Assembly (NCBI RefSeq): GCF_002933395.1
Contig: NZ_PKFN01000007.1
Coordinates: 248,001 to 312,000 of the forward strand
Origin: Yoonia maritima
GTDB taxonomy: Bacteria > Pseudomonadota > Alphaproteobacteria > Rhodobacterales > Rhodobacteraceae
Direction of reading: 5' to 3'
DNA: 64,000 nt
A model generated the notes under the pieces. That model worked only from the letters and a program-made list of their open reading frames with translations. It was not told the origin of the DNA and ran no database searches. Every line of letters begins with the position of its first letter. Positions within the stretch are counted from its first letter, which is position 1. This document shows positions 1,396-13,436 of the stretch, one piece after another. The translations under genes and the position numbers were made by a program.

Positions 1396-1868
1396 ACTCG
1401 TATCCCTAGTCACCCAAACAATGTGCATTTCTACTTAGGATATCCTGCCATGCTTGAATGCTGGCGACTGACTAAAGAAAGGATAAGTGGAGAGAATAAA
1501 GGATAGTCCAATCACCTTTAGGATAGTTTTGAATGCTGGAATGTGCAGTCTAGGGTTGCATTGGGGTGCGTAAATCGTCGCCTATGTTCAGCGAAAGTTC
1601 TTCGTGAATTCGTGTTTGTTCTGCCATTTTGGCTATATTTCGCCGAATTCCTATTGAGGTCGCGCGTGGCGCATGCGACGCTGACTGCAATTAATGGTTG
1701 CGTGTGAATTTTCTCGCGCAAGTGTTTTTTGTATGGGGGCATACAGGACGTTCACGGTTGCTAGTGATTGTCCGCAAGACGTATTTGGCTGAGATTCAGT
1801 AGGACGAGATGGGTGCGCGCATTCGTCCCTGTAATTGAAGGAAAAATACGGGATAGACGAGGGAGTTG
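1396..1868. promoter_or_regulatory. Divergent intergenic region with AGGATA repeats at 20-bp spacing
   Basis: This 473-bp gap separates the muramidase gene (minus) from the response regulator gene (plus). AGGATA occurs at 1437, 1480, 1500 and 1520; the last three are spaced exactly 20 bp apart, about two helical turns. The copy at 1437 sits in the palindrome AGGATATCCT. TTGAATGCTGG is directly repeated at 1454 and 1529. Just before the regulator, GGACGA (1802) and TCGTCC (1823) can form a leader hairpin. Ordered repeats like these suit a tandem operator, possibly for the adjacent regulator. That use is inferred. No gene is supported inside the gap. Confidence 0.45.
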
Positions 1869-2477
1869 ATGAAAATTTTAATTGCCGATGATCACGACAT
1901 GGTGCGCGAGACGATTGCCTTATATTTGCAAAATGAACACGGAGAGCACATTACCCAAGCGGCAAATCTCGATGATGCCCTTATAGCCATTAAAAATAGT
2001 CCTCCTTTTGCTGTCGTAATACTTGATTACGATATGCCAGGGATGAATGGGCTTGACGGGCTGGAAAAGGCACTTGTGGAAAATGGTGGAAACCCCGTTG
2101 CTTTGATTTCAGGAACCGCAAATCGGGCAATTGCCGAGCAGGCCCTAGGTATGGGGGCCGCTGGATTTCTACCGAAAACAATGGCGGCTAAGTCTATGAT
2201 TAATGCCATAAAGTTTATGGCATTGGGGGAAATTTATGCCCCGTTAGATTTCATGACTGCTGAAGAGGAAGAAAACGTTGCTGCCAGCCACTTGTCATTG
2301 CGTGAAAAGCAGGTGCTCAAGGGCATCGCTGAAGGAAAGTCTAACAAGGAAATCGCTCGTGATATCGACCTGCAAGAAGTTACCGTTAAGCTGCATGTCA
2401 AAACGCTCTGTCGTAAGCTTCATGCAAAGAACCGGACACATGCGGCCATGATAGCGCGTGATCGGAATATGATCTGA
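1869..2477 (+). CDS. LuxR/NarL-type response regulator
   Basis: The product is 202 residues from ATG 1869, with GGGAG just upstream; a TTG at 1866 is possible. Residues 1-120 are a receiver domain: Asp7 and Asp8 form the acidic pocket, Asp53 in VVILDYDMPG is the phospho-acceptor, a conserved Ser/Thr follows in ALISGT, and Lys in FLPKT is the conserved lysine. Residues 138-200 are a LuxR-type helix-turn-helix (LSLREKQVLKGIAEGKSNKEIA). It should be a phosphorylation-controlled transcription factor in the cytoplasm. No histidine kinase lies in the window, so it is an orphan here. It lies between genes for exported proteins and just upstream of the DUF11 cassette, which makes those genes plausible targets. 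Confidence 0.9.
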   Translation: MKILIADDHDMVRETIALYLQNEHGEHITQAANLDDALIAIKNSPPFAVVILDYDMPGMNGLDGLEKALVENGGNPVALISGTANRAIAEQALGMGAAGFLPKTMAAKSMINAIKFMALGEIYAPLDFMTAEEEENVAASHLSLREKQVLKGIAEGKSNKEIARDIDLQEVTVKLHVKTLCRKLHAKNRTHAAMIARDRNMI

Positions 2478-2479
2478 TA

Positions 2480-2514
2480 CATAGCAACCGACGATATACA
2501 CGCTGGTTGCTATG
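2480..2514. terminator. Bidirectional terminator-like hairpin between convergent genes
   Basis: CATAGCAACC at 2480-2489 is a perfect 10-bp complement of 2505-2514, with a 15-nt loop. It sits 2 nt after the response regulator stop and before the stop of the convergent minus-strand gene. There is no long T tract, so termination strength is uncertain. Confidence 0.55.
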
Positions 2515-2547
2515 CCAGTTTCGACTAAATCGGCGGTCGATACCTGT

Positions 2548-3033
2548 CTAGATTGCGAACTTTAAGCCAAATGTCCACAAATGTTCGTAGTTCCCTAATT
2601 CTATGTCGCCCGGAAGATACTGGACGAATACCGGAATTTTGTCGTGTGTAAATTCCAATCCGCCGATACCAATTATATCGGACCCTCCAACACTTATCGG
2701 AGTGTCGCTGCCTGTTTGCGGGTAATGTGCAATACCAACGAATGGGTGCACGTGAAACCCACCAGCGCTTAGGCTAATAAAATCTGATGTGAACGTGGCC
2801 GATGTGGCGATGTTCGAAAAGCTATTTCTGTGCACGCCTAGTCGTATGCTCGCGATATCACAATTCCACGAAACAAAGATACCGGGATTGAATTCGTCGA
2901 AATCTTGCTGGGCGTTTACGTGATGGGACCCTAACAGCACTGCAATGCCATCAGGTTTCATAATCTCACAATTTTCTGCAAAAAGCGGGTTTGCCGTGGC
3001 GGCAATTACGGCTGCAACTAAATACTGATTCAT
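2548..3033 (-). CDS. Small exported beta-rich protein, possibly an outer-membrane barrel
   Basis: The product is 161 residues. Residues 1-19 form a signal peptide ending in PLFAEN. The mature part alternates polar and hydrophobic residues and ends in LWTFGLKFAI, which resembles a final transmembrane beta-strand. The segment GSHHVN followed by NPGIFVSWNC recalls the Ser-His and 'NPG' segments of small barrels such as PagL-like or acyloxyacyl hydrolases, but I cannot name the family with confidence. The two cysteines of the mature part could form a disulfide. It converges on the response regulator gene and diverges from the DUF11 cassette. Confidence 0.6.
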   Translation of the reverse strand: MNQYLVAAVIAATANPLFAENCEIMKPDGIAVLLGSHHVNAQQDFDEFNPGIFVSWNCDIASIRLGVHRNSFSNIATSATFTSDFISLSAGGFHVHPFVGIAHYPQTGSDTPISVGGSDIIGIGGLEFTHDKIPVFVQYLPGDIELGNYEHLWTFGLKFAI

Positions 3034-3539
3034 ACTTATGGCTCTCTCTTCTCATCTTGGGCCGACTGACTTTTGACGCGCTGTGTAATCGGTAAGCTGG
3101 TAGGATTGTGTTTGCTAAAGTCTATGTGGTGGTAACATCGGGGTTAGAATACATTAGCACTATGGAATGTATTGTACTGCAAAGTGGAAGTATAGATTGC
3201 TACTGCTTTGGTATATTGCCCGCGCGTTCGTATAGCTGTTGATGCTGTCATCCCCATAAAAAGTATAAATATACCTAATTTTTTTGTTTTGCTGTGATTA
3301 AACTCACTAATGGACCGTTTTGATCATCCAAATAAACGCGCCTAAGGCGAGTATGCTGTCCTACACTTTCGTATAGTCGAATACCTAAAGAGCCATGCGG
3401 TGACCTTTTGAGAGGATATCGCTCTGCCTTGCTTTCAAGAAAAATTGAAACATCGAACTACGTGGGCTCGCCCTACGGTAGTCAAATTTTAAATGCCTAG
3501 CCGGCGTTCCGTCGGCCCTTGAGAGAAGGAATAAAGATA
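3034..3539 (+). promoter_or_regulatory. Long leader/promoter region of the DUF11 cassette
   Basis: About 500 bp of AT-rich DNA without a supported gene lies between the divergent 161-residue protein gene and the DUF11 cassette. TATAG-centred words recur (about 3190, 3230 and 3371); TTCGTATAGTCGAA near 3368 is a partial dyad. AGGATATC at 3413 echoes the AGGATATCC word upstream of the response regulator. A GC-rich segment near 3498-3516 could form a short hairpin before the ribosome site. I cannot assign a -35/-10 pair with confidence. Confidence 0.35.
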
Positions 3540-4052
3540 ATGTCAATTCAGGCTATTGCATCATCGTTAAAGCTTTCGCTCGCTCCGGCGTTGGCGCTTG
3601 TTGCACATACCGCCGTTGCGCAAGAACTGAGCAGCTCCGCAGATTTCAAAATCGTTGAGTTTTCTGCTGACGGTGAGGAGATGCTGGTACAGCGTAGCGA
3701 AGTGCGACCGGGCGAAATTATTGAATATACGCTGATCCACAGCAACAACTCTGAAATGGATATGTCTGGGCTGTCCGTGTTTGCACCTGTCCCCGACGGT
3801 GTCACGCTTACCATTGGAAGCGACTTTTCAAGTGTTCAGGCGCAATTCGAAATTCAAGCCGAAATTGATCCTGAGCAAGAAGGACTGGAATGGTCGACCT
3901 TGCCTGCAATGCGCACCGTCATCAGCGAAGATGGCACGAAGATCCAAGAACCTGTTCCCGCCGAGGCCATAGAGGCCGTGCGTTGGAATTTGGAAGCGGC
4001 GCTCGCTGGGGGGGAGGCTGCTCTGAATACATATCGGGTGGTTGTTAACTAA
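3540..4052 (+). CDS. Small exported DUF11-like single-domain protein
   Basis: The product is 170 residues. The start is ATG 3540, with AGAAGGA 9 nt upstream; an in-frame TTG at 3519 is less likely. Residues 1-28 are a signal peptide ending in TAVAQ. The rest is one Ig-like domain of the DUF11 type: the segment EVRPGEIIEYTLIHSNNS matches the typical 'pGd.vtYtit.tNtg' strand pair, and LSVFAPVPDGVTL matches 'v.D.lP.gvt'. There is no cell-wall anchor, lipobox or membrane helix. It is the first gene of a three-gene cassette, 64 bp before the next. A periplasmic or surface accessory subunit is the likely role, but no function is established. Confidence 0.8.
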   Translation: MSIQAIASSLKLSLAPALALVAHTAVAQELSSSADFKIVEFSADGEEMLVQRSEVRPGEIIEYTLIHSNNSEMDMSGLSVFAPVPDGVTLTIGSDFSSVQAQFEIQAEIDPEQEGLEWSTLPAMRTVISEDGTKIQEPVPAEAIEAVRWNLEAALAGGEAALNTYRVVVN

Positions 4053-4116
4053 GCGGGCGCACCTGCTTGGAATGACCAAGTCTGTAAAAATTAAATCGTA
4101 GAAAAGGTACAAGACA

Positions 4117-6732
4117 GTGAAATATCAAAAAACGTTACTCTCTAGCAGCGCTCTCGTTGCCGTAGCATTCGCCGGAACAGCGGCCTTTGCAGCACCACCC
4201 GAAGCTGGCACAGTGATTGGTAACCAAGCGGTTGCGACATACACAAACGGCGCAGGGGACACGATCACAGTCACCTCTAATAAAGTTGAGACCGTAGTGC
4301 AGCAGGTTGCAGGTGTGACGATCACATCTGACAATACTGAAAATGTGGCTCCGGGGGGGAAAGCCTTTCTACCACACATTATTACCAACGACGGTAACGG
4401 ACCTGACGCGTTTACGCTAACTGCAACCGAAGGCGCAGGTGGTTACAATTTTGCGTCAGTTACCTTCTACGCTGATGCAGATATGGATGGTGTCGCCGAT
4501 AGCGCCACGCCAATCACTCAAACACCGACACTGGCCGCTGGCGAACGCTTTGGTGTCGTCATTGACGCGACAGCACCATCAACAGCAACGGCTGGTCAGA
4601 CAGAAACATTGACAGTCGCAGCGGCCAGTATCCTAACGGCGGCTGTCACGTCGTCGAACACTGACACGCTGACGGTATCATCGCAGGCCATCATGGAACT
4701 GGTCAAATCGATGGTTGTCGATAAAAGCGCTGGCGACCCAAGTATCGTTGACGCTGGTGATACAGTCACAATCACTTTGACCTATTCGAACACTGGTTTG
4801 GCGGCTGCTTCAGCCTATGCGGTCGAAGATATTATCGATACGAACCTGCCATACACTGTCACCTCTGCTCAGTGGTCCGATCGGACCGTCGCGGGTGGCT
4901 TGGATGAAACAAACGGCACTGGCGTTGATGCAACAAACGGCTCTGGTGAAACAATCGTTTACCAAGTCAACGCGGCAACAAACACGATCGATTTCACGAT
5001 TTCTAGTGTTGCTCCAGGTCGTACAGGGTCGGTGACATTTGAAACCACAATCGACGCGCTTGCTGATGCTGGATTGATCGAAAACACTGCAACGCAGTCT
5101 GACGGAACTGGTGCCTATCCACCGTCAAACACTGCGTCTATAACGGTTGACCCGCAGTATGCGCATGTGATGGACGACACCTATACGCAAGCTGACACCA
5201 CAGTCGTACGGTCTGCGACTGATGATGGTGCCGCTGGCGATGATGAAGTCACCGAAACCACGGATGTGTCGCAGGGTGCTGTGATTGGGTTTGAATTCGT
5301 CATCGGGAACGATTCAAATGAAATTGACAGTTACACGCTTGGCTTTACCGACGATGATTTTCCACCAGGTACGTCATTCCGCTTTGTCGGGGCAGACGGC
5401 ATCACGCCTGTTGTCGGAAGCGTCGGTCCTCTTGCGCCGGGTGAAGCAACCAAAGTGACATTGCTGGCGACACTTCCGGGTAACGCTGCGCCTGCGGCAG
5501 CTGGTGCAACCAATTATACAGCGACAGTTGATGCAACGTCGGAAGCATCTGGTCAGGTGAATAGTGCGGTTGCCGAATTCACTGGCGCTGTTCTTGCCGC
5601 TACAGTCGATCTTGAAAACCGCGTTGTCGGTTCGGAGGGTGATGGGGCTGCACCTACGAACGGCGGAAACCCATGGGTAACAACAAGCAGCGATCCGGGC
5701 GTTGCGATTAGTTTCCCGATGTCAGTTGAAAACGAAGGTCCGACCTCTGACAGCTATAACTTGTCTTTGGCTGCACCTCTGCCAACAGGTTGGTCCGTCG
5801 AGTTCCAGCTTGAGGATGGAACTGTGGTTACGAACACAGGTACCGTTCCAGCAGGTGCGACACAAAACATTGTTGCGATCATCACATCAGATGATGGTGC
5901 GGCTCCACAAGACCAGCTGGTCGAAATTGTGCTGACGTCACCGGTTTCTGGTCAAAGCGATAGCATCGTGAACCAAGTTACTGTGAACGAAGTTATCGAT
6001 GTCGCAATCGTTGCGGACCAAACAGTTCAGGCCGCGCCGGGTGGCGTTGTGGACATCCGTCACACAATCACCAACGAAGGTAATGTTACAATTACCGAAG
6101 GTGCAATCACGCAAAGTGGTCTGGTTGATTTCTCAGGCGCGATTTACTGGGATCAGAACGCGGATGGTGTCCTAGACCCATCAGATCCGGTGATCGATAA
6201 CTTTGATGACATCGGTGGCCTTGCCGCAGGCGTTTCAGCTTCGTTGATCTATCGTGTTCAGGCCGGGTCTGTTCCAGGTGTCTCCGAAGTGGGTACGCTG
6301 ACTTTGGCGACAAGCTTGAATGCTGGCGCGGAAACTGATGGTGATACTGCCGACAATACAGTTGAGGACCGCATCGTGGTCGTTTCTGGGGATGTGACTT
6401 TGGTGAAAACCCAAGCCATTGATCCAAGCTGCACCGGCGCTGCCGGAACCTTTAGCAAGGACCGTCAAGACGTCAATCCGGGGCAGTGCATTCGCTACCG
6501 TATCGAAGCAAGTAATACGGGTTCGGCCGCCGTTGCAAACGTTGAAATCAAGGATGTTGTTCCTGCTTACACCACGTTTGAAAGCTGCGGTGGCGGCTGT
6601 GATGCAGCAGTGACACCATCGGCGACCAGCACTGTGACAACGGCGACTGCGCCTAGTATCTCAAGCGCGCATGGTACCGTAGATCCCGGCAGTGTTGCGA
6701 CGCTCGAATTCACCGTGAGGGTTGACGAGTAA
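4117..6732 (+). CDS. Large exported multi-domain DUF11 surface protein
   Basis: The product is 871 residues from GTG 4117, with AAAAGG 9 nt upstream. Residues 1-26 are a signal peptide ending in AAFAA. Residues 27-70 form an N-terminal module (IGNQAVATYTN, then TSNKVETVVQQV) that recurs in the downstream barrel protein. At least five Ig-like/DUF11-type domains follow in tandem, with clear copies starting near residues 190 (MELVKSMVVDKS) and 760 (VTLVKTQAIDPS). DADMDGVAD near residue 120 and WDQNADGVLD near 678 look like Ca2+-binding loops. Four cysteines, all near the C-terminus, may pair. There is no anchor motif; the chain ends in VRVDE. It is probably a long secreted or surface fibre displayed with help of the barrel protein, which is inference from gene order and shared modules. 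Confidence 0.85.
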   Translation: MKYQKTLLSSSALVAVAFAGTAAFAAPPEAGTVIGNQAVATYTNGAGDTITVTSNKVETVVQQVAGVTITSDNTENVAPGGKAFLPHIITNDGNGPDAFTLTATEGAGGYNFASVTFYADADMDGVADSATPITQTPTLAAGERFGVVIDATAPSTATAGQTETLTVAAASILTAAVTSSNTDTLTVSSQAIMELVKSMVVDKSAGDPSIVDAGDTVTITLTYSNTGLAAASAYAVEDIIDTNLPYTVTSAQWSDRTVAGGLDETNGTGVDATNGSGETIVYQVNAATNTIDFTISSVAPGRTGSVTFETTIDALADAGLIENTATQSDGTGAYPPSNTASITVDPQYAHVMDDTYTQADTTVVRSATDDGAAGDDEVTETTDVSQGAVIGFEFVIGNDSNEIDSYTLGFTDDDFPPGTSFRFVGADGITPVVGSVGPLAPGEATKVTLLATLPGNAAPAAAGATNYTATVDATSEASGQVNSAVAEFTGAVLAATVDLENRVVGSEGDGAAPTNGGNPWVTTSSDPGVAISFPMSVENEGPTSDSYNLSLAAPLPTGWSVEFQLEDGTVVTNTGTVPAGATQNIVAIITSDDGAAPQDQLVEIVLTSPVSGQSDSIVNQVTVNEVIDVAIVADQTVQAAPGGVVDIRHTITNEGNVTITEGAITQSGLVDFSGAIYWDQNADGVLDPSDPVIDNFDDIGGLAAGVSASLIYRVQAGSVPGVSEVGTLTLATSLNAGAETDGDTADNTVEDRIVVVSGDVTLVKTQAIDPSCTGAAGTFSKDRQDVNPGQCIRYRIEASNTGSAAVANVEIKDVVPAYTTFESCGGGCDAAVTPSATSTVTTATAPSISSAHGTVDPGSVATLEFTVRVDE

Positions 6733-6774
6733 GTTGCCACTACAGCTGCATTTTTTGGGTAGCTGCACGATAAA

Positions 6775-6802
6775 GTCCCCTCCGTTGCGTTCCGGGGGGG
6801 AC
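6775..6802 (+). terminator. Intercistronic hairpin between the two large DUF11 genes
   Basis: Positions 6775-6784 pair with 6793-6802 over 10 bp (nine Watson-Crick pairs and one G-T), with an 8-nt loop. The stem is mostly G-C and is followed by AGTTTCC rather than a T run. It lies 43 bp after the 871-residue gene and 44 bp before the barrel gene. A leaky terminator or 3'-end stabiliser that gives more of the fibre than of the barrel is plausible. Confidence 0.5.
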
Positions 6803-6845
6803 AGTTTCCAACGTTTTCGCGTGTTCCTTGGTTGAAGGTTACAAG

Positions 6846-9800
6846 ATGGAAAATTTTAGGTCTTTTAAATCATCGGTTGCCAACATTGGGTTCGCGTTCG
6901 GGGTAGCGCTATTTGGTTATGTCGCTGATGTATCTGCCGCGCCTGTGGCGTCGGGGGTGCGCATCGTAAATGTCGCGGGGGCGACATATTTTAATGCTAA
7001 TCTTGGTGTGACCGAGACTGTTTACTCGAACCCGGTTGAAGCGATCGTTGCAGAAGTTCCTGCAATCGACGTAGTCGGCTATTCCGATCTAACGCTGTCG
7101 CGGGGCGCAGTTGATCAACATCACTTTGAAATACAAAATACTGGCAACACTGAACTTGCGTTAAACGCCGCCATGGACACTTCGCAAGAAAATGGTGTTT
7201 TGCGGAATGGAACGTTGTTTTGGGACCAAGATGCTGATGGCATCATTGATGACGGCGAGCCAAGGATCGATCCGACCGATGAAATACTTTTGGCCATGGG
7301 GGAAAGCGTTAGCTTCATCTACAGTCTGAATGTGAATGATGACGTAGCGCCGGGCGATATCGCGCTTTCTCGTTTGAACGTTACGCCGCGCAGCAGCACG
7401 TCTGATACCGAAGTTGCTGGTAGCCACGAAGCATTTGGGCGAGTCGTTGTCGTTGACGGCGGGTTGGAAATTTTGAAATCAGCATCGCGCCGTGTGATCG
7501 AAGCGGGCGAAGAGCTGACTTATAAAATAGCGCTGCGTAACAATTCAGAATCTGTGATCTCCACCTATGACGCAATTGATGGGGACATCATTCGTGTTGA
7601 CGGCAGCGAACAACGTGGCGTTTTGGTCCGTGATACAGTGCCGTTGAACACAGTATTTGTGGACTTCGGAAGCTCTGGTGAATTCCAACCACTTTACCAT
7701 GTTCAAGGTCAATTAGAGCAAGATTATCAGACCGCACTACCTGCAACATTGGCTGATGTTGATGCGGTCGCATTTTTGCTTCCGCAAGATTACGCTGTTG
7801 GTAGATCGACGGATTTATACTTTACTGTGTTTGTTCAGGATAATTTGGGTGATCTGATCGTTCACAACACAGCTGAGACCTACCAACCAAACGCGAGTGG
7901 TGTCGATACTATTCAGTCCAACACCGTGACTTTACGTTATTCTTCGGAGGCGGGTGTTTCTCTTGATTTTGTTTCCCCTGATACGCGTGAAAGCGCTGAC
8001 TATGGTATCAACGGATCTGATACGATGCTGCGCCTTAGCGCTGGTGCATGTAACGTAACGTTGGGTGCCGATAACGTGGATATCACCGTAACGAGCCGCA
8101 TCACAGGCGACACAGAGACAATCAGTGCACGCGAAACAGGTCCGAATACAGGTCTGTTCTATACGACCGCTTTGCCGATGGCATCTATGGTTGATCCTGT
8201 TTTTGGTGATGGCGTCATGGCGACGACAGACGGCGATGTGCTGGATAGCTACACTTCGTGTAGCGGCGCAACTGTCACTGATGCTTTGATAATAAACCCG
8301 GGGAATTTTGTCTTTAACAGTGTGACCAACGCACCAGTAGAGGGCGCGCTTGTACGGGTTGTAAATTCGTCGGGTGACGTTATCGCCGAAGCTACGACTG
8401 ATCAACTCGGGTTCTTCACCTTGGGTGAAGTTACCGCGGGAACTTACTCTTACTCGGTCACACCGCCACGTGACTTTGCTTTTCCTTCGTCACGCCTGAG
8501 CTTTCCGAACTACGACCGCCAAACTGACAACGAAGTGTCATACGGCCAAGCGTTCCGTCACGCTGGTGGTGCAATGCATGTTGCGGATATTCCACTGGAC
8601 CCATCCTATGGCGTGCCACTTTCGCTTGAGAAATCAGCAGACAAAGACCAAGTTCGCACAGGCGAATTCGTTGTGTACACAATCGATGCAACCAACAACA
8701 TGGACGAGGCGCTGATTGGCGCTGAAATCCTAGACCGTTTACCGGCTGGCGCAGTTTATATTGCTGGTTCGACATTGCTTGATGGGCAGGCATGGCCGGA
8801 TCCAATCGCAGATGGCACTGGTGATTATCGCTTTGAAATTGGCACTATGTTGCCCCTGCAAGAACGTGAGCTGACCTATGTTCTAAGCTTCACGTCGCAG
8901 GCACGTGTTGGCCGTAACTATAATACTGCGATCCTTGACGGTCGTCAGGCGGGCACAGGTGATTACCTCTCATCTAACGTCGCAAGCACCTATGTCACGC
9001 ACGATAATTCTGGCGGTGTGTTTGCCCGCGAAGCATCAATCATAGGGTCTGTGTTTATGGATTGTAACGGTGATGGTCTGCGCGACGGCCCAGAAGAACG
9101 CGGGGTGCCTGGGGTGAAAATTGTGACCCAAAGCGGGTTGTCAGTCGTGACAGACATCGACGGTAAATATTCTTTGTTTGGTCTGCGCCCTGTATCGCAT
9201 GTGCTTGCGGTTATGGCAGATACCCTGCCTGTTGAAACAGAGGTCACAGTCACACGAACAACAGATATGCGCCGGGGTGGTTCACGTTTGGTGCCGCTGA
9301 CACGTGGTGAATTGCAGACAGAAAACTTTGCCTTGGCGTCCTGTACGCCTGAGGCATTGGCAGACGTGGCTGACCGTGTAACCACATTCGCAGACCGTCA
9401 CAGCGGTGACAGCAACATGATCTCTGATTTGCCAATGACACCGTCACGTGGCGATCAGCGTTCGGCTCGTACAGAGGCGGGGATCGCGACGACAACGCAA
9501 ATTTACACTGCAAACCGGCGTGCAGGTGCAACACCTGCACCAGAGCTTGCCGAAAAGGCCCGAGCAACATCGGCCATCCGTCAAGGTCTTGAGCCTTTGA
9601 TGCGTAGCCTCACCAATGAGCCCGGTTTCATTGGTCTAACCGATGGCCAAGCCATGAGCCGCCGCACCGTCAATATTCAGGTGAAAGGCCCAGCTGATTT
9701 GACACTAAGCGTTCGCGTGAATGGCGATACGATTTCGGCAGCCCAGATCGGCGAACGTTCTGTTCTCGCGAGTGAAAACCTGCAAGCGATGGCATATATC

Positions 9801-12599
9801 GCGGTTCCGCTGAGTGCTGGTAAGAACTCTGTTGTTTTGGTGGGTGCAGACCCGTTTGGCAACGAGCGCGTTCGTGAAGAAATCACGCTGACTGCGCCCG
9901 GTGATCCGTCAAAGATTGAATTGATCGTTCCCGAAACTGCGTCTGCGACGCCGGGCTCAATTGTACCAGTTGTTGTACGCATTCTTGATGAGGCTGGCAT
10001 GCCGCTTGACGCGTCTAGCACTGTCACACTGCGTGCACGTAACGCGACGTGGGATGTCACCGATATCCGTGACAACCAGCCCGGTGTACAGGTTTACATC
10101 GACAATGGCGAAGCGACATTTGGATTGCGTGCACCGCAAACGACAGGTCCGGACCTGATCGAGGTGCGCAGTAGCTTTGATAATGTCGAAGCCGAGATCT
10201 TGTTCACTCCAGACTTGGATGAACGTATCATGGTTGGTGTAATCGAGGGGGCGGTTGCACTGAACGGTCGCGGCGATCTGATCGAGGAAAACCGCATTAG
10301 CCCGTTCGAGGACACCGCAACAGGCCTGCGCGGCGAAGTATACCTTAAGGGCCGTATTCTGGGGGATGCACTGCTGACCCTGCGCTATAGCTCTGACAAA
10401 GATACAGATGATCGGTTATTCCGTGATATTCGCGGCGACGAATACTATCCTGTTTACGGCGATAATTCAGAGCGTGGCTTTGACGCGCAATCATCTGGTA
10501 ATCTTTATGTCAAAATCGAAAATGGACAGTCTTATGTTCTGTATGGGGACATGGCGATCGAAGCCGAAAGCTCTGCTTTCCGCCTAGGTGGGTACAACCG
10601 CGTCGCAACCGGTGCAAAGGCGCACTGGGAAAGTAATGATGTGTCTGTGTCCGTTTTTGCCGCACATATCGCGCAGCAACAGCAGGTGCGTGAAATTGCA
10701 GGGCGGGGTATCTCTGGGCCATATGATCTTGATCTTGATGGATATCTAGAAGGTTCAGAAAAGATCGAAATCCTGATCCGCGACAGTGAAACGGGCGACG
10801 TGCTGGAAACATTCGCGCAGCGCCGTGGAACTGACTATGTGCTGGATTTCTTTCGCGATGCAATCGTGTTCAACACGCCGGTGGCGCAAGCCGATGCCGA
10901 TGGTAACCCAGTTAGTATTCGCGTGACCTATGAAACGGAAGGCGATGATAACGATCGTTACTGGTTGTATGGCGGTGAAGTGTCTTACCAAGCGACCGAA
11001 GCGACAAAAATCGGCGCGCGCGTTGTGCATGCTGACGCTGATGGTGTGTCCGCCGAACGTGAACGTATTCGTGCGGTTTATACGCGGACTGAACTTAGCC
11101 GTGCTTCGAACGTAGAGCTGGAACTGGCGCAGTCTGAAAATAACGCTGGTGATACAGGAAACGCGGGCCGTATTGCTTATGAATTCGATGGTGCGGTTAG
11201 TACGCTGAAAATCGAGGCAACGCGTACCGATGAATATTTTGACCCGTCAGGCGCAGACACGCGCGCTGACAGCGATCTCGTGACCATCGACTTTGATCGC
11301 AAGCTCACGCGTAAAACAAGCGTGACCACAAGCGCACGTTATCTGGCTGACCGCATTGCTGATACGGAAACCGCCAGCTTGGAACTAACCTACAACCGCA
11401 AGGTAAATGACCGGTTAAGCAGCAGCATTGGTGTGCGAAGCAACGTTGACCTGTCAGCGGCAGGACAACCAACAGAGACCTATGTTTTGTTGGGCAGTAC
11501 TTGGCAGCCTGAATCTGCACCATCACTGACGTTCACATCTGAACTTGAAGTTCCGGTCGAGGGAGGCCCGGTCTCAACGGCTAACCTTGGTGCGAACTAC
11601 CGTTTCGGTGAAGGATGGACGTTGGGCGCATCTGTGGACATTGAATCCAACAGTCAAACCAACGAAGACAAAGTGACTAATGTACAGCTCAGTGCAGATT
11701 ACCGCATTGGAGAGCTGGTTTCTGGCTACACCAATTACACTGCGAATGGGAACGATCTTGAACGTGCCCAAGTGGTGCAAGGGTTCCGCGCAGATTGGGC
11801 GATGACCGAGCAGCTTAAGCTACAAGCGAACTTTGAGCACACACAGCCATTGGATGACGACGGCAGCGCGCTGACAAGCCTATCTGTTGGCGCATCGTGG
11901 GAAGCAGAAGACCGGTCTTGGATCGTTGACATGGATGTTGACCAAACATTCGAAGATGCAGGGCGGACGATCTACGGGGACTTTGGCACCGCTGCGCAAA
12001 TCTCTCCTGATCTGACATTCCTTGCGCGTTCGCGCATCGGTGTTGATCGTCGCGGCGATGGCCCAGACCACATACGTCACCGCGCGCGTGTAGGTGTTGC
12101 ATATCGGCCTGTCGATGATGCGCGTTTGAACATGCTTGCTTGGTATGAACAGCAGCTTGAAAAGCGCGAGCAGACTAACACAACACATCTGTGGTCCATT
12201 GACGGCACATATGAAGCCGGTGAAACAGTGAAACTGAATGCAAAATATGCCGGCCAAGCCACCGAAATCAAAGTAGGCGAAGGTGCAAACACTGTGAACG
12301 CTGAAACCATGACACAGCTCGTGCAAGCAGGCATCGAGTGGGACTTTGGCGACGACCAATGGATTGCGGGTCTGAACCTGATGCATCTTTGGGATGACGC
12401 GGACTCAAGCACAAATGCAATCGGTGCAGAACTAGGATACGCGTTCGACGAAGGCGCGATGCTATCGTTGGGTTACAACAAATCCATCGGTCGGTCGCCG
12501 ATCAACAGCCCGCTGACCCAAGAAGGCATGTATGTTCGGATGCGCATCATGCTTGATGAAACCCTGTGGGACCGTTTGGATCAGTTCGGACAAAAGTAA
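6846..12599 (+). CDS. Giant DUF11/SdrD-B-like outer-membrane beta-barrel protein
   Basis: The product is 1917 residues from ATG 6846, with AAGG 7 nt upstream. Residues 1-32 are a signal peptide. Residues 33-80 repeat the N-terminal module of the upstream protein (NVAGATYFN, SNPVEAIVAEV). WDQDADGIID near 128 is a calcium-loop-like motif. DUF11-like domains lie at about 205-380 and 591-705, carboxypeptidase-regulatory/SdrD-B-like domains at about 487-545 and 730-833 (VFMDCNGDGLRDG), and Ig-like domains at about 938-1115. From about 1150 to the end are alternating amphipathic strands typical of a large beta-barrel, opened by EYYPVYGDNSE near 1198 and ending MYVRMRIMLDETLW plus a short tail. It should be an outer-membrane protein presenting or anchoring surface domains. 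Export of the partner fibre is possible but unproven. Confidence 0.85.
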   Translation: MENFRSFKSSVANIGFAFGVALFGYVADVSAAPVASGVRIVNVAGATYFNANLGVTETVYSNPVEAIVAEVPAIDVVGYSDLTLSRGAVDQHHFEIQNTGNTELALNAAMDTSQENGVLRNGTLFWDQDADGIIDDGEPRIDPTDEILLAMGESVSFIYSLNVNDDVAPGDIALSRLNVTPRSSTSDTEVAGSHEAFGRVVVVDGGLEILKSASRRVIEAGEELTYKIALRNNSESVISTYDAIDGDIIRVDGSEQRGVLVRDTVPLNTVFVDFGSSGEFQPLYHVQGQLEQDYQTALPATLADVDAVAFLLPQDYAVGRSTDLYFTVFVQDNLGDLIVHNTAETYQPNASGVDTIQSNTVTLRYSSEAGVSLDFVSPDTRESADYGINGSDTMLRLSAGACNVTLGADNVDITVTSRITGDTETISARETGPNTGLFYTTALPMASMVDPVFGDGVMATTDGDVLDSYTSCSGATVTDALIINPGNFVFNSVTNAPVEGALVRVVNSSGDVIAEATTDQLGFFTLGEVTAGTYSYSVTPPRDFAFPSSRLSFPNYDRQTDNEVSYGQAFRHAGGAMHVADIPLDPSYGVPLSLEKSADKDQVRTGEFVVYTIDATNNMDEALIGAEILDRLPAGAVYIAGSTLLDGQAWPDPIADGTGDYRFEIGTMLPLQERELTYVLSFTSQARVGRNYNTAILDGRQAGTGDYLSSNVASTYVTHDNSGGVFAREASIIGSVFMDCNGDGLRDGPEERGVPGVKIVTQSGLSVVTDIDGKYSLFGLRPVSHVLAVMADTLPVETEVTVTRTTDMRRGGSRLVPLTRGELQTENFALASCTPEALADVADRVTTFADRHSGDSNMISDLPMTPSRGDQRSARTEAGIATTTQIYTANRRAGATPAPELAEKARATSAIRQGLEPLMRSLTNEPGFIGLTDGQAMSRRTVNIQVKGPADLTLSVRVNGDTISAAQIGERSVLASENLQAMAYIAVPLSAGKNSVVLVGADPFGNERVREEITLTAPGDPSKIELIVPETASATPGSIVPVVVRILDEAGMPLDASSTVTLRARNATWDVTDIRDNQPGVQVYIDNGEATFGLRAPQTTGPDLIEVRSSFDNVEAEILFTPDLDERIMVGVIEGAVALNGRGDLIEENRISPFEDTATGLRGEVYLKGRILGDALLTLRYSSDKDTDDRLFRDIRGDEYYPVYGDNSERGFDAQSSGNLYVKIENGQSYVLYGDMAIEAESSAFRLGGYNRVATGAKAHWESNDVSVSVFAAHIAQQQQVREIAGRGISGPYDLDLDGYLEGSEKIEILIRDSETGDVLETFAQRRGTDYVLDFFRDAIVFNTPVAQADADGNPVSIRVTYETEGDDNDRYWLYGGEVSYQATEATKIGARVVHADADGVSAERERIRAVYTRTELSRASNVELELAQSENNAGDTGNAGRIAYEFDGAVSTLKIEATRTDEYFDPSGADTRADSDLVTIDFDRKLTRKTSVTTSARYLADRIADTETASLELTYNRKVNDRLSSSIGVRSNVDLSAAGQPTETYVLLGSTWQPESAPSLTFTSELEVPVEGGPVSTANLGANYRFGEGWTLGASVDIESNSQTNEDKVTNVQLSADYRIGELVSGYTNYTANGNDLERAQVVQGFRADWAMTEQLKLQANFEHTQPLDDDGSALTSLSVGASWEAEDRSWIVDMDVDQTFEDAGRTIYGDFGTAAQISPDLTFLARSRIGVDRRGDGPDHIRHRARVGVAYRPVDDARLNMLAWYEQQLEKREQTNTTHLWSIDGTYEAGETVKLNAKYAGQATEIKVGEGANTVNAETMTQLVQAGIEWDFGDDQWIAGLNLMHLWDDADSSTNAIGAELGYAFDEGAMLSLGYNKSIGRSPINSPLTQEGMYVRMRIMLDETLWDRLDQFGQK

Positions 12600-12644
12600 G
12601 CCTAGGGTTTGCGAGCGGTCACTACGACCATTTGAAAATACGAT

Positions 12645-12674
12645 GATGCATCAACATTGAAATGTTGGTGCATC
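12645..12674 (+). terminator. Terminator of the DUF11 cassette
   Basis: A 13-bp inverted repeat, GATGCATCAACAT at 12645-12657 pairing with 12662-12674 through one G-T pair, follows the barrel gene stop by 45 bp. The sequence after it is GTTGCTTTTG, a weak T-rich tail. It also lies before the stop of the convergent yaeQ gene and could serve both. Confidence 0.65.
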
Positions 12675-12698
12675 GTTGCTTTTGGGAGTGTTCACACT

Positions 12699-13247
12699 TT
12701 AATGATCCGCAGTTTTCCATTTATCGGGTGTGACGTATACGACGCTGTCATCAATGCTTACCATCACTTCGCCGTCCTGAATGGTTACGTTCAGCTTCAT
12801 GGACCGATTTGCCAGTTTTGCTAGCTCAGCTGTGTGATCCTCGGAAAAGTTCACGACCTGTAGGTTATCAAAGCGGGTGGTGCTGTTTTTGATCTTTTCC
12901 CACCACATGTTAGCGGTCCTGCCGCCGTAGCTGTAAACCACCACCTTGTCAGCTTTACCACAGGATTGGCGGACGATTTTTTCACTAGGAAGCCCGAGCG
13001 CAACCCATAGCTCAAGCTCACCGCTCAGACTTTTTTGCCAAATATCAGGCTCGTCATCGGTGGATATGCCCTTCGTCATTTCCAGTTGCTCGTCCGCGTT
13101 CAGCGCGAAAGCAAGAATGCGCACCATGAGCCGCTCATCCGTTTCAGAAGGGTGTTTGGCAACGGTTAGTTTGTGAGTTTCATAATAATGACGATCCATA
13201 TCGGACACGGAAAGTTCAACTTTATAAATGGTGGATTTCTGCGCCAT
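12699..13247 (-). CDS. yaeQ: YaeQ family protein
   Basis: The product is 182 residues, matching the roughly 180 residues usual for YaeQ. The start MAQKSTIYKVELSVSDMDR is the family N-terminus, so ATG 13247 is preferred over longer in-frame extensions. Other recognisable segments are RLMVRILAFAL, LWVALGLPSEK and VVVYSYGG. YaeQ has a PD-(D/E)XK nuclease-like fold; its cellular role is not settled, although suppression of a transcription-elongation defect has been reported for enterobacterial versions. It stands alone between the DUF11 cassette terminator and a tRNA gene. Confidence 0.93.
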   Translation of the reverse strand: MAQKSTIYKVELSVSDMDRHYYETHKLTVAKHPSETDERLMVRILAFALNADEQLEMTKGISTDDEPDIWQKSLSGELELWVALGLPSEKIVRQSCGKADKVVVYSYGGRTANMWWEKIKNSTTRFDNLQVVNFSEDHTAELAKLANRSMKLNVTIQDGEVMVSIDDSVVYVTPDKWKTADH

Positions 13248-13305
13248 GATATGTCCTGAAAATGCAAAGAAAGAGATGCCTAGTGCGTCGCCACACCACA
13301 AACAA

Positions 13306-13325
13306 AATCGGCCAAAGGGCCGATT
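13306..13325 (-). terminator. Terminator of the tRNA-Ser gene
   Basis: AATCGGCC at 13306-13313 pairs perfectly with 13318-13325 around a 4-nt loop. Read on the minus strand it ends in GATTTTGTTTG, a usable T tract. It lies 21 bp downstream of the tRNA 3' end, the place expected for its terminator. Confidence 0.75.
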
Positions 13326-13346
13326 GTACGATTAAAAATGAGTGGG

Positions 13347-13436
13347 TGGCGGAGGCTCAGGGATTCGAACCCTGGGAGGACTTTCACCCTCGTCGGTTTT
13401 CAAGACCGGTGCATTCGACCACTCTGCCAAGCCTCC
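13347..13436 (-). tRNA. tRNA-Ser (anticodon UGA)
   Basis: A 90-nt class II tRNA on the minus strand. The 7-bp acceptor stem is GGAGGCT with AGCCTCC, followed by discriminator G and an encoded CCA. The anticodon loop CTTGAAA gives UGA, reading UCA-type serine codons. A long variable arm (CGAGGGTGAAAGTCCTC) and the T-arm GGTTCGAATCC are present. This is the class II architecture expected for serine. No integrase or att-like duplication was seen next to it. Confidence 0.96.

Follow-up and report, generated by a model that had tools for sequence, protein, structure and literature searches.

The window analysed here is a stretch of 64,000 nucleotides (positions 248001-312000 of contig C8, from a genome of 3.67 Mb). 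It carries three exported open reading frames (ORFs), hereafter P1, P2, and P3, which lie head to tail on the forward strand across positions 3540-12599 and form a co-conserved unit. We propose, with a probability of roughly 45%, that this trio makes up the core of an as yet unnamed surface-fibre operon, in which P3 would be the base, P2 the major subunit, and proteins that have only the C-type domain described below (C-only proteins, P1 among them) would be placed at the other end. Polymerisation, polarity, stoichiometry, surface location, and adhesive use are the parts of this proposal that we infer from domain sharing. If the proposal is true, marine and other Proteobacteria use a widespread unnamed operon with annotations of the "hypothetical" type to build a fibre anchored in the outer membrane; DUF11, which is common on bacterial surfaces and has no known function, would gain a concrete role open to test, and three genes would have a clear predicted loss phenotype.

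Conservation of the trio in close relatives

The P1 ORF (3519-4052) encodes 177 amino acids from a TTG start or 170 from the ATG at 3540, the P2 ORF (4117-6732) encodes 871 amino acids from a GTG start, and the P3 ORF (6828-12599) encodes 1923 amino acids from a TTG start or 1917 from the ATG at 6846. These ORFs confirm the three consecutive exported proteins of 170, 871, and 1917 residues that had been noticed in an earlier, sequence-only reading of this DNA. The intergenic gaps are 64 nucleotides (P1-P2) and 113 nucleotides (P2-P3), and each protein has an N-terminus that, judged by eye, resembles a signal peptide.

That reading had also made its interpretation depend on whether the three genes co-occur in the same order elsewhere, which they do. 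P1 (E ≤ 0.001), P2 (E ≤ 1e-8), and full-length P3 were found in the same four of 120 family genomes, the genome of the window included, and in the same order; the P3 search matched eight further family genomes through distant barrel or rod relatives only. A GTDB scan was run with an alignment of the four P3 proteins and used only two conserved peptide patterns, so that it finds close relatives; it gave 27 loci, from roseobacters, other Rhodobacterales, and three Neomegalonema metagenome-assembled genomes. P1, P2, and P3 stand in order on one strand in 25 of these loci, and the contigs of the other two begin inside P3. Since the 27 loci appear to include three of the four family genomes, the two counts are not independent. 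Where P2 is seen among the Rhodobacterales loci (25 loci), it is single and long (869-908 amino acids). Among named relatives, Yoonia maritima (L050) came closest, with 97% across the final 988 residues, and at one locus (L075) P3 is divided over two ORFs. One complete trio lies on a plasmid of Pacificitalea manganoxidans, where the genes are annotated as "hypothetical protein", "NEW3 domain-containing protein", and "carboxypeptidase-like regulatory domain-containing protein".

Domain grammar of P1, P2, and P3

By profile comparison, the trio follows a domain grammar: P2 is an N-type start plus a C-type DUF11 end, P3 is an N-type start plus a barrel-like end, and P1 is the C-type alone. Pfam matched P1 to DUF11 only, below the cut-off (E 0.009); P2 to DUF11 in four stretches (E 3.6e-13, 50.3 bits, over the curated cut-off) and to NPCBM_assoc; and P3 to DUF11 (44.6 bits) and SdrD_B (46.9 bits), both over the curated cut-offs, as well as to CarboxypepD_reg and OMP_b-brl. 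The DUF11-type repeat was the sole addition from an NCBIfam scan. In profile-profile comparison, P1 matched the C-terminal 125 residues of P2 (probability 97.6, E 3.7e-12), and the start of P2 matched the start of P3 (probability 96.5, E 9.5e-10). P1 matched P3 residues 231-490 weakly (probability 65), and the comparisons of P1 with the start of P2, of P1 with the start of P3, and of the start of P2 with its own end each gave a probability below 4. The earlier description of all three proteins as built from DUF11-like domains thus holds for P2; it is weak for P1 by Pfam but positive by profile-profile comparison, and is only partly right for P3.

The two domain types were then counted with profile hidden Markov models (HMMs) at E < 1e-3 in sets of 75 P2, 58 P3, and 48 P1. 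The N-type start was detected in 71/75 P2, in 53/58 P3 (30/58 with the P2 profile alone), and in none of the 48 P1, whereas the C-type stood at the C-terminus of 75/75 P2, 22/48 P1, and 0/58 P3; anywhere in the protein, it was found in 46 of the 48 P1. Shortly after the signal peptide there is a start motif, roughly G-T-x-I-x-N-x-A-x-A-x-Y ... S-N-x-V, which takes a looser form in several P3. P2 also has conserved DxDxDGxxD-like loops. Of the eight weak matches (E 0.024 to 0.81) that searches of P1 against the PDB returned, six were to gamma-adaptin appendage domains. P1 was also considered as a PapD-like chaperone, an idea that found no support: 26 P1 searched at E up to 0.01 gave weak DUF11 matches in seven, single weak matches to Alpha_adaptinC2 and DUF2275, and nothing more.

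A C-type end as in P2, with no N-type start, is present in two giant exported DUF11 proteins of the same genome: one of 1962 amino acids just to the left of the window (L008:5502-11390, reverse strand; GEVED, DUF6923, and DUF11) and one of 1007 amino acids on contig C12 (L010:2795-5818). Both are candidate tip adhesins. Further C-only proteins are whole relatives in L058 and L062, proteins of 709 amino acids in L157 and 388 amino acids in L160, and a 978-residue protein on an Acinetobacter plasmid; the proteins with C-type ends in L056, L061, and L064 have their starts cut off, their N-termini lying outside the data.

The barrel-like domain of P3

The C-terminal β-barrel predicted in the sequence-only reading is supported by Pfam matches of the outer-membrane protein or porin type in a minority of members and by an alternation count. 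OMP_b-brl matched P3 of the window at 29.9 bits (cut-off 28.7) and, at E ≤ 0.01, 9 of 27 members including this one; each OMP/porin-like family matches at most 10 of the 27. With a hydropathy scale in which the values of Tyr and Trp were raised, P3 residues 1151-1923 contain 31 alternating segments at a threshold of 3.5, against 11.9 (standard deviation [SD] 2.8) in shuffled sequences, and 36 at a threshold of 3.0, against 19.7. P2 shows little excess (14 versus 11.9 and 22 versus 20.1), and the non-barrel stretch 936-1150 of P3 shows a mild one (9 versus 4.2, SD 1.7). These results suggest, though they do not prove, that the C-terminus of P3 is a very large barrel, which may be closed. The stretch QEGMYVRM, 18 residues from the end of P3, resembles what we take to be the β-signal of the β-barrel assembly machinery (BAM). 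A regular expression for this signal matched 51 of 55 P3 C-termini, 53% of shuffled tails, and 23/75 P2 tails, so that weight attaches only to its steady position, which in 44 of 55 P3 lies 13-18 residues before the end. No barrel relatives were found in the viral contigs searched.

The hairpin between P2 and P3

The 60 nucleotides 3′ of each stop codon were folded, and the minimum free energy (MFE) was compared with that of dinucleotide shuffles to give a z score. An MFE below −20 kcal/mol was obtained after P2 in 23/26 loci, after P1 in 0/26, and after P3 in 18/27; the corresponding counts for z < −3 were 18/26, 0/26, and 14/27. After P3, a terminator is expected. In distant loci, z < −3 was found in 6/11 P2-to-P2 gaps and 0/11 P2-to-P1 gaps. 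Operons with two P2 genes carry the hairpin mostly 3′ of one P2 clade: on a tree of 42 P2, of which 18 were labelled, the label changes five times, against approximately 13.9 times when shuffled (0/500 as low), in a quick tree with loose label criteria (MFE ≤ −14, gap ≥ 40) in which near-copies inflate the clustering. L155 was labelled "no" since the called P3 start lies upstream, though a hairpin was found there in the 60-nucleotide test, and folding of the gaps in L154 and L156 gave no hairpin. A consensus scan for promoters and terminators across window positions 2400-13400 gave no excess over shuffles (5 versus 10.3 and 13 versus 10.9, respectively) and no hit in the P2-P3 gap.

Distribution beyond close relatives

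The P1 profile matched 22, and the barrel profile 47, of 398 phylum genomes; a subset of all matches, namely 13 P1 loci and 31 barrel stretches, was taken for study. Type A loci, in which P1 is accompanied by one to three P2-like genes and by a P3 that unites rod and barrel in a single protein, number 29 after L168 (the same locus as L101) and L161 (placed with type B) were left out. In six of them the contig ends before P1 is reached. In each of the remaining 23, nine chosen by a P1 match and 14 by a barrel match, P1 and one or more P2 lie upstream on the same strand; P1 of L153 and L158 was assigned manually, following a permissive scan. The order is P1-P2-P3 in roseobacters, L095, L101, and L138; P1-P2-P2-P3 in most loci of the f38 group and in L153, with three P2 in L103; and P2-P1-P2-P3 in the f6 group, L154, and L156. 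In many distant operons, P2 is short (approximately 330-490 amino acids), and two or three diverged versions of it occur, one usually with a 3′ hairpin. A broken copy on a Novosphingobium plasmid matches one f6 P3 at 37% over the whole length, and the f6 group is therefore probably sphingomonad. Plasmid p4 of Acinetobacter haemolyticus (L170) has, in a row, a gene resembling P1, a P2 broken into several pieces, an intact P3, an OmpA family protein, and the C-only 978-residue DUF11 protein.

Type B loci consist of a DUF11 rod ORF and a mostly separate barrel, and no P1 was matched in the ten loci scanned. The genome of the window has such a pair on contig C1 (L009:8058-13840), where a barrel ORF of 1140 amino acids follows immediately on a DUF11/SdrD_B rod ORF that is truncated by the end of the contig; similar rod and barrel pairs are present in other family genomes too. 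The terminal residue of the type B barrel is F or Y in 5/10 scanned loci, in the pair on C1, and in all eight family-genome barrels examined. On pMP1 of Deinococcus radiodurans (L171 3353-11661), two N-type DUF11 proteins adjoin a barrel relative of 1086 amino acids annotated as hypothetical; on these domain matches, the DUF11-plus-barrel theme extends to the Deinococcota.

Proposed mechanism and alternative explanations

In the proposed fibre, P3 would be held in the outer membrane by its C-terminal barrel and would present an N-terminal domain that matches the P2 start in type. The RNA hairpin between P2 and P3 would help to have P2 made in excess, and P2 would stack head to tail, the C-type DUF11 end of one subunit meeting the N-type start of its neighbour. 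P3, as the bearer of an N-type start but no C-type end, would form the fibre base, and C-only proteins (P1 and giants such as the 1962-residue protein) would terminate the fibre at its opposite end, in the role of initiator, cap, or tip adhesin. The sequence-only reading had suggested the small protein as a cap and the barrel as a display device; the former fits P1 as a lone C-type domain and the latter fits the N-type domain common to P2 and P3, so that the interpretation is partly supported. That the barrel secretes or anchors its own rod, and that P2 lies outside the cell, would be further conjectures.

Several observations weigh against the proposed fibre. P1 also matches the internal DUF11 of P3 (probability 95.6, E 1.2e-8) and the C-type profile matches 43/58 P3 somewhere in the protein, so that P1 and P2 are not the only bearers of the C-type; the HMM counts are partly circular, those for P2 being circular, because the profiles were made from the same families. 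It may also be that DUF11 proteins commonly open with an N-type start that plays no part in assembly. Sequence searches of the PDB with P3, the barrel profile, and the P2 profile gave no match at the thresholds used, and four of the 13 P1 loci (L100, L102, L104, and L106) have P1-like genes without a nearby barrel. The hairpin is likewise uneven: the window itself (Table 1), L050, and L058 are the MFE exceptions after P2, z lies above −3 in 8 of the 26 loci, which are related and not independent, and in distant loci z < −3 was reached in only 9/28 P2-to-P3 stretches and in 1/23 P1-to-P2 gaps.

P2 might instead be displayed without a polymer, as a single long surface protein (or one per barrel) attached non-covalently to P3, with P1 as a periplasmic helper of this two-piece adhesin. 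Rods of DUF11/SdrD_B domains are often monomeric adhesins, and the long, single P2 of the Rhodobacterales suits such an arrangement, but the short P2 of many distant operons, with its diverged copies and usual hairpin, does not, and we regard display of this kind as somewhat doubtful. The very large barrel-like domain, with its approximately 31-36 alternating segments, could also be read as a secretion pore of the two-partner or usher type for P2 and the giant DUF11 proteins; P1 would then be a periplasmic chaperone, and the substrates would be released or attached elsewhere. Variable cargo is in keeping with this, as is the small exported partner that occurs in each of the 23 distant operons for which there is upstream sequence. 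However, Pfam searches of P3 (E up to 1 for the usher domain) and of 27 barrel regions (E up to 0.01) found no usher domain, no known type V translocator domain (2/27 weakly match Invasin_D3), no POTRA with a TpsB barrel, and no DUF560 outer-membrane protein, and the Pfam matches of P1 include no POTRA, usher, PapD, autotransporter, or DUF560 either. Since P1 also resembles the end domain of the cargo itself, unlike known chaperones, and the N-terminal domain of P3 is common to the cargo, a pore seems quite improbable. Finally, the trio might belong to the architecture of the envelope, as an outer-membrane tether or a surface-layer-like coat that is neither fibre nor adhesin. The envelope of D. 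radiodurans, in which N-type DUF11 proteins adjoin a barrel relative, is layered, and a lysozyme-like gene often lies near the trio; the patchy accessory spread (4/120 family genomes, and one complete set on a plasmid) fits a dispensable appendage better, and we consider an architectural role very improbable.

Comparison with known systems

The earlier statement that no named system has this layout agrees with searches of the open-licence literature, in whose titles and abstract openings no description of it was found. Chaperone-usher fimbriae such as CS6 and P pili offer an analogy, being likewise encoded by an operon of a small exported protein, one or more subunits, and an outer-membrane barrel, and a hairpin 3′ of a subunit gene is mentioned for CS6 fimbriae (PMC8923064). 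The trio differs from them in having no usher or PapD match (PapD was sought in P1 only), in that P1 is one domain related to the subunit end, and in that the P3 barrel is C-terminal, behind a long rod that opens like the subunit. DUF11/SdrD_B surface proteins share their domain types with P2 and P3; those of Gram-positive bacteria have a sortase anchor, whereas the trio is split over three or more genes and has an outer-membrane barrel-like domain. The split rod and barrel pairs (on contig C1, in other family genomes, and on D. radiodurans pMP1) have a related barrel and DUF11/SdrD_B rod but differ from the trio in that most have rod and barrel on distinct ORFs, F or Y is often the last residue of the barrel, and P1 was not matched in the ten loci scanned. 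A possible head-to-tail polymer of β-sandwich subunits, with the DxDxDGxxD-like loops conserved in P2, may further be likened, on the titles of the respective papers, to chaperone-free strand-exchange filaments (archaeal cannulae, TasA, and archaeal bundling pili). Zetaproteobacterial stalk genes were considered as a further comparison, on literature listings, and dropped.

Spinae are tubular protein appendages of marine bacteria, including a Roseobacter, and are built of a β-rich subunit, spinin. It is conceivable, if unlikely, that the trio represents a new class of appendage free of chaperones and ushers of known types, in which fibres form by the fit of N-type into C-type domains, use C-only starters or caps, and end on an N-type outer-membrane protein, and that in roseobacters these are perhaps the spinae genes. 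The link to spinae, which are treated in a review (PMC7378377), is a guess. In the available portion of work on the T11SS (type XI secretion system), DUF11 is named only among the domains found with DUF1194 (PMC12282271). An anchor protein of endospore fibres in Clostridia contains DUF11 domains, in a layout unrelated to that of the trio, according to a preprint (PMC11952670).

Neighbouring genes and features of the window

The features of the window are collected in Table 1. In relatives the trio often forms part of a larger module, which the sequence-only reading did not bring up. Neighbour homologues were sought by BLAST at E ≤ 1e-15 among the 27 loci, and the counts are lower bounds because contigs and loci end. 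Besides the response regulator and the lysozyme-like protein of Table 1, homologues near the trio include a hybrid histidine kinase (at least 15 loci), a small molybdopterin-type protein (at least 12), and the 1962-residue giant DUF11 protein (at least 13). The kinase homologues share 31-37% identity over 703-853 residues, which, the family being a common one, does not establish orthology. A second NarL-type response regulator, a small Oxidored_molyb protein, and the hybrid histidine kinase adjoin the giant DUF11 gene (L008:1036-5124). The nearby response regulator and hybrid kinase may be controllers of the fibre operon, and the lysozyme-like protein may open the peptidoglycan for the fibre. 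The latter has no Pfam match at E ≤ 0.1 and none in the PDB at the thresholds used; all 15 aligned copies (that of the window and 14 of the 19) match the PHROG endolysin family.

Table 1. Positions of the trio, its domains, and neighbouring features in the window.
Position	Strand	Feature	Basis
3540-4052	+	P1, exported, single C-type (DUF11-like) domain; proposed cap, initiator, or helper	Pfam, profile-profile comparison, HMM
4117-6732	+	P2, exported, multi-domain; proposed major fibre subunit	ORF, Pfam, profile-profile comparison
4198-4491	+	P2 N-type start, approximately residues 28-125	Profile comparison
6373-6729	+	P2 C-type DUF11 end, approximately residues 753-871	Profile comparison; four Cys invariant in 26 aligned relatives
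6733-6792	+	60 nucleotides 3′ of P2 stop; strong RNA hairpin in most relatives, weak here (−10.1 kcal/mol, z 0.6)	Folding with shuffles
6846-12599	+	P3, N-type start, rod domains, and C-terminal barrel-like domain; proposed outer-membrane base	ORF, Pfam, profiles
6936-7517	+	P3 N-type domain (limits approximate), common to P2 N-terminus	Profile comparison
8310-9263	+	P3 rod part: CarboxypepD_reg, DUF11, SdrD_B	Pfam
10278-12596	+	P3 barrel-like domain, approximately 770 residues, 31-36 alternating nine-residue segments	Pfam and alternation count
1866-2477	+	Response regulator (Response_reg and GerE)	Pfam; homologue in 18/27 relatives' loci
664-1428	−	Exported lysozyme/endolysin-like protein (PHROG endolysin family)	PHROG match; homologue in 19/27 loci

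Between the regulator and P1 lies an exported-looking protein of 161 amino acids (2548-3033, reverse strand) with no Pfam match and with a homologue in 2/27 loci (L050 and L054). Just to the right of the trio, a tRNA-Ser gene (13347-13436, reverse strand) adjoins a YaeQ gene and may mark an island edge.

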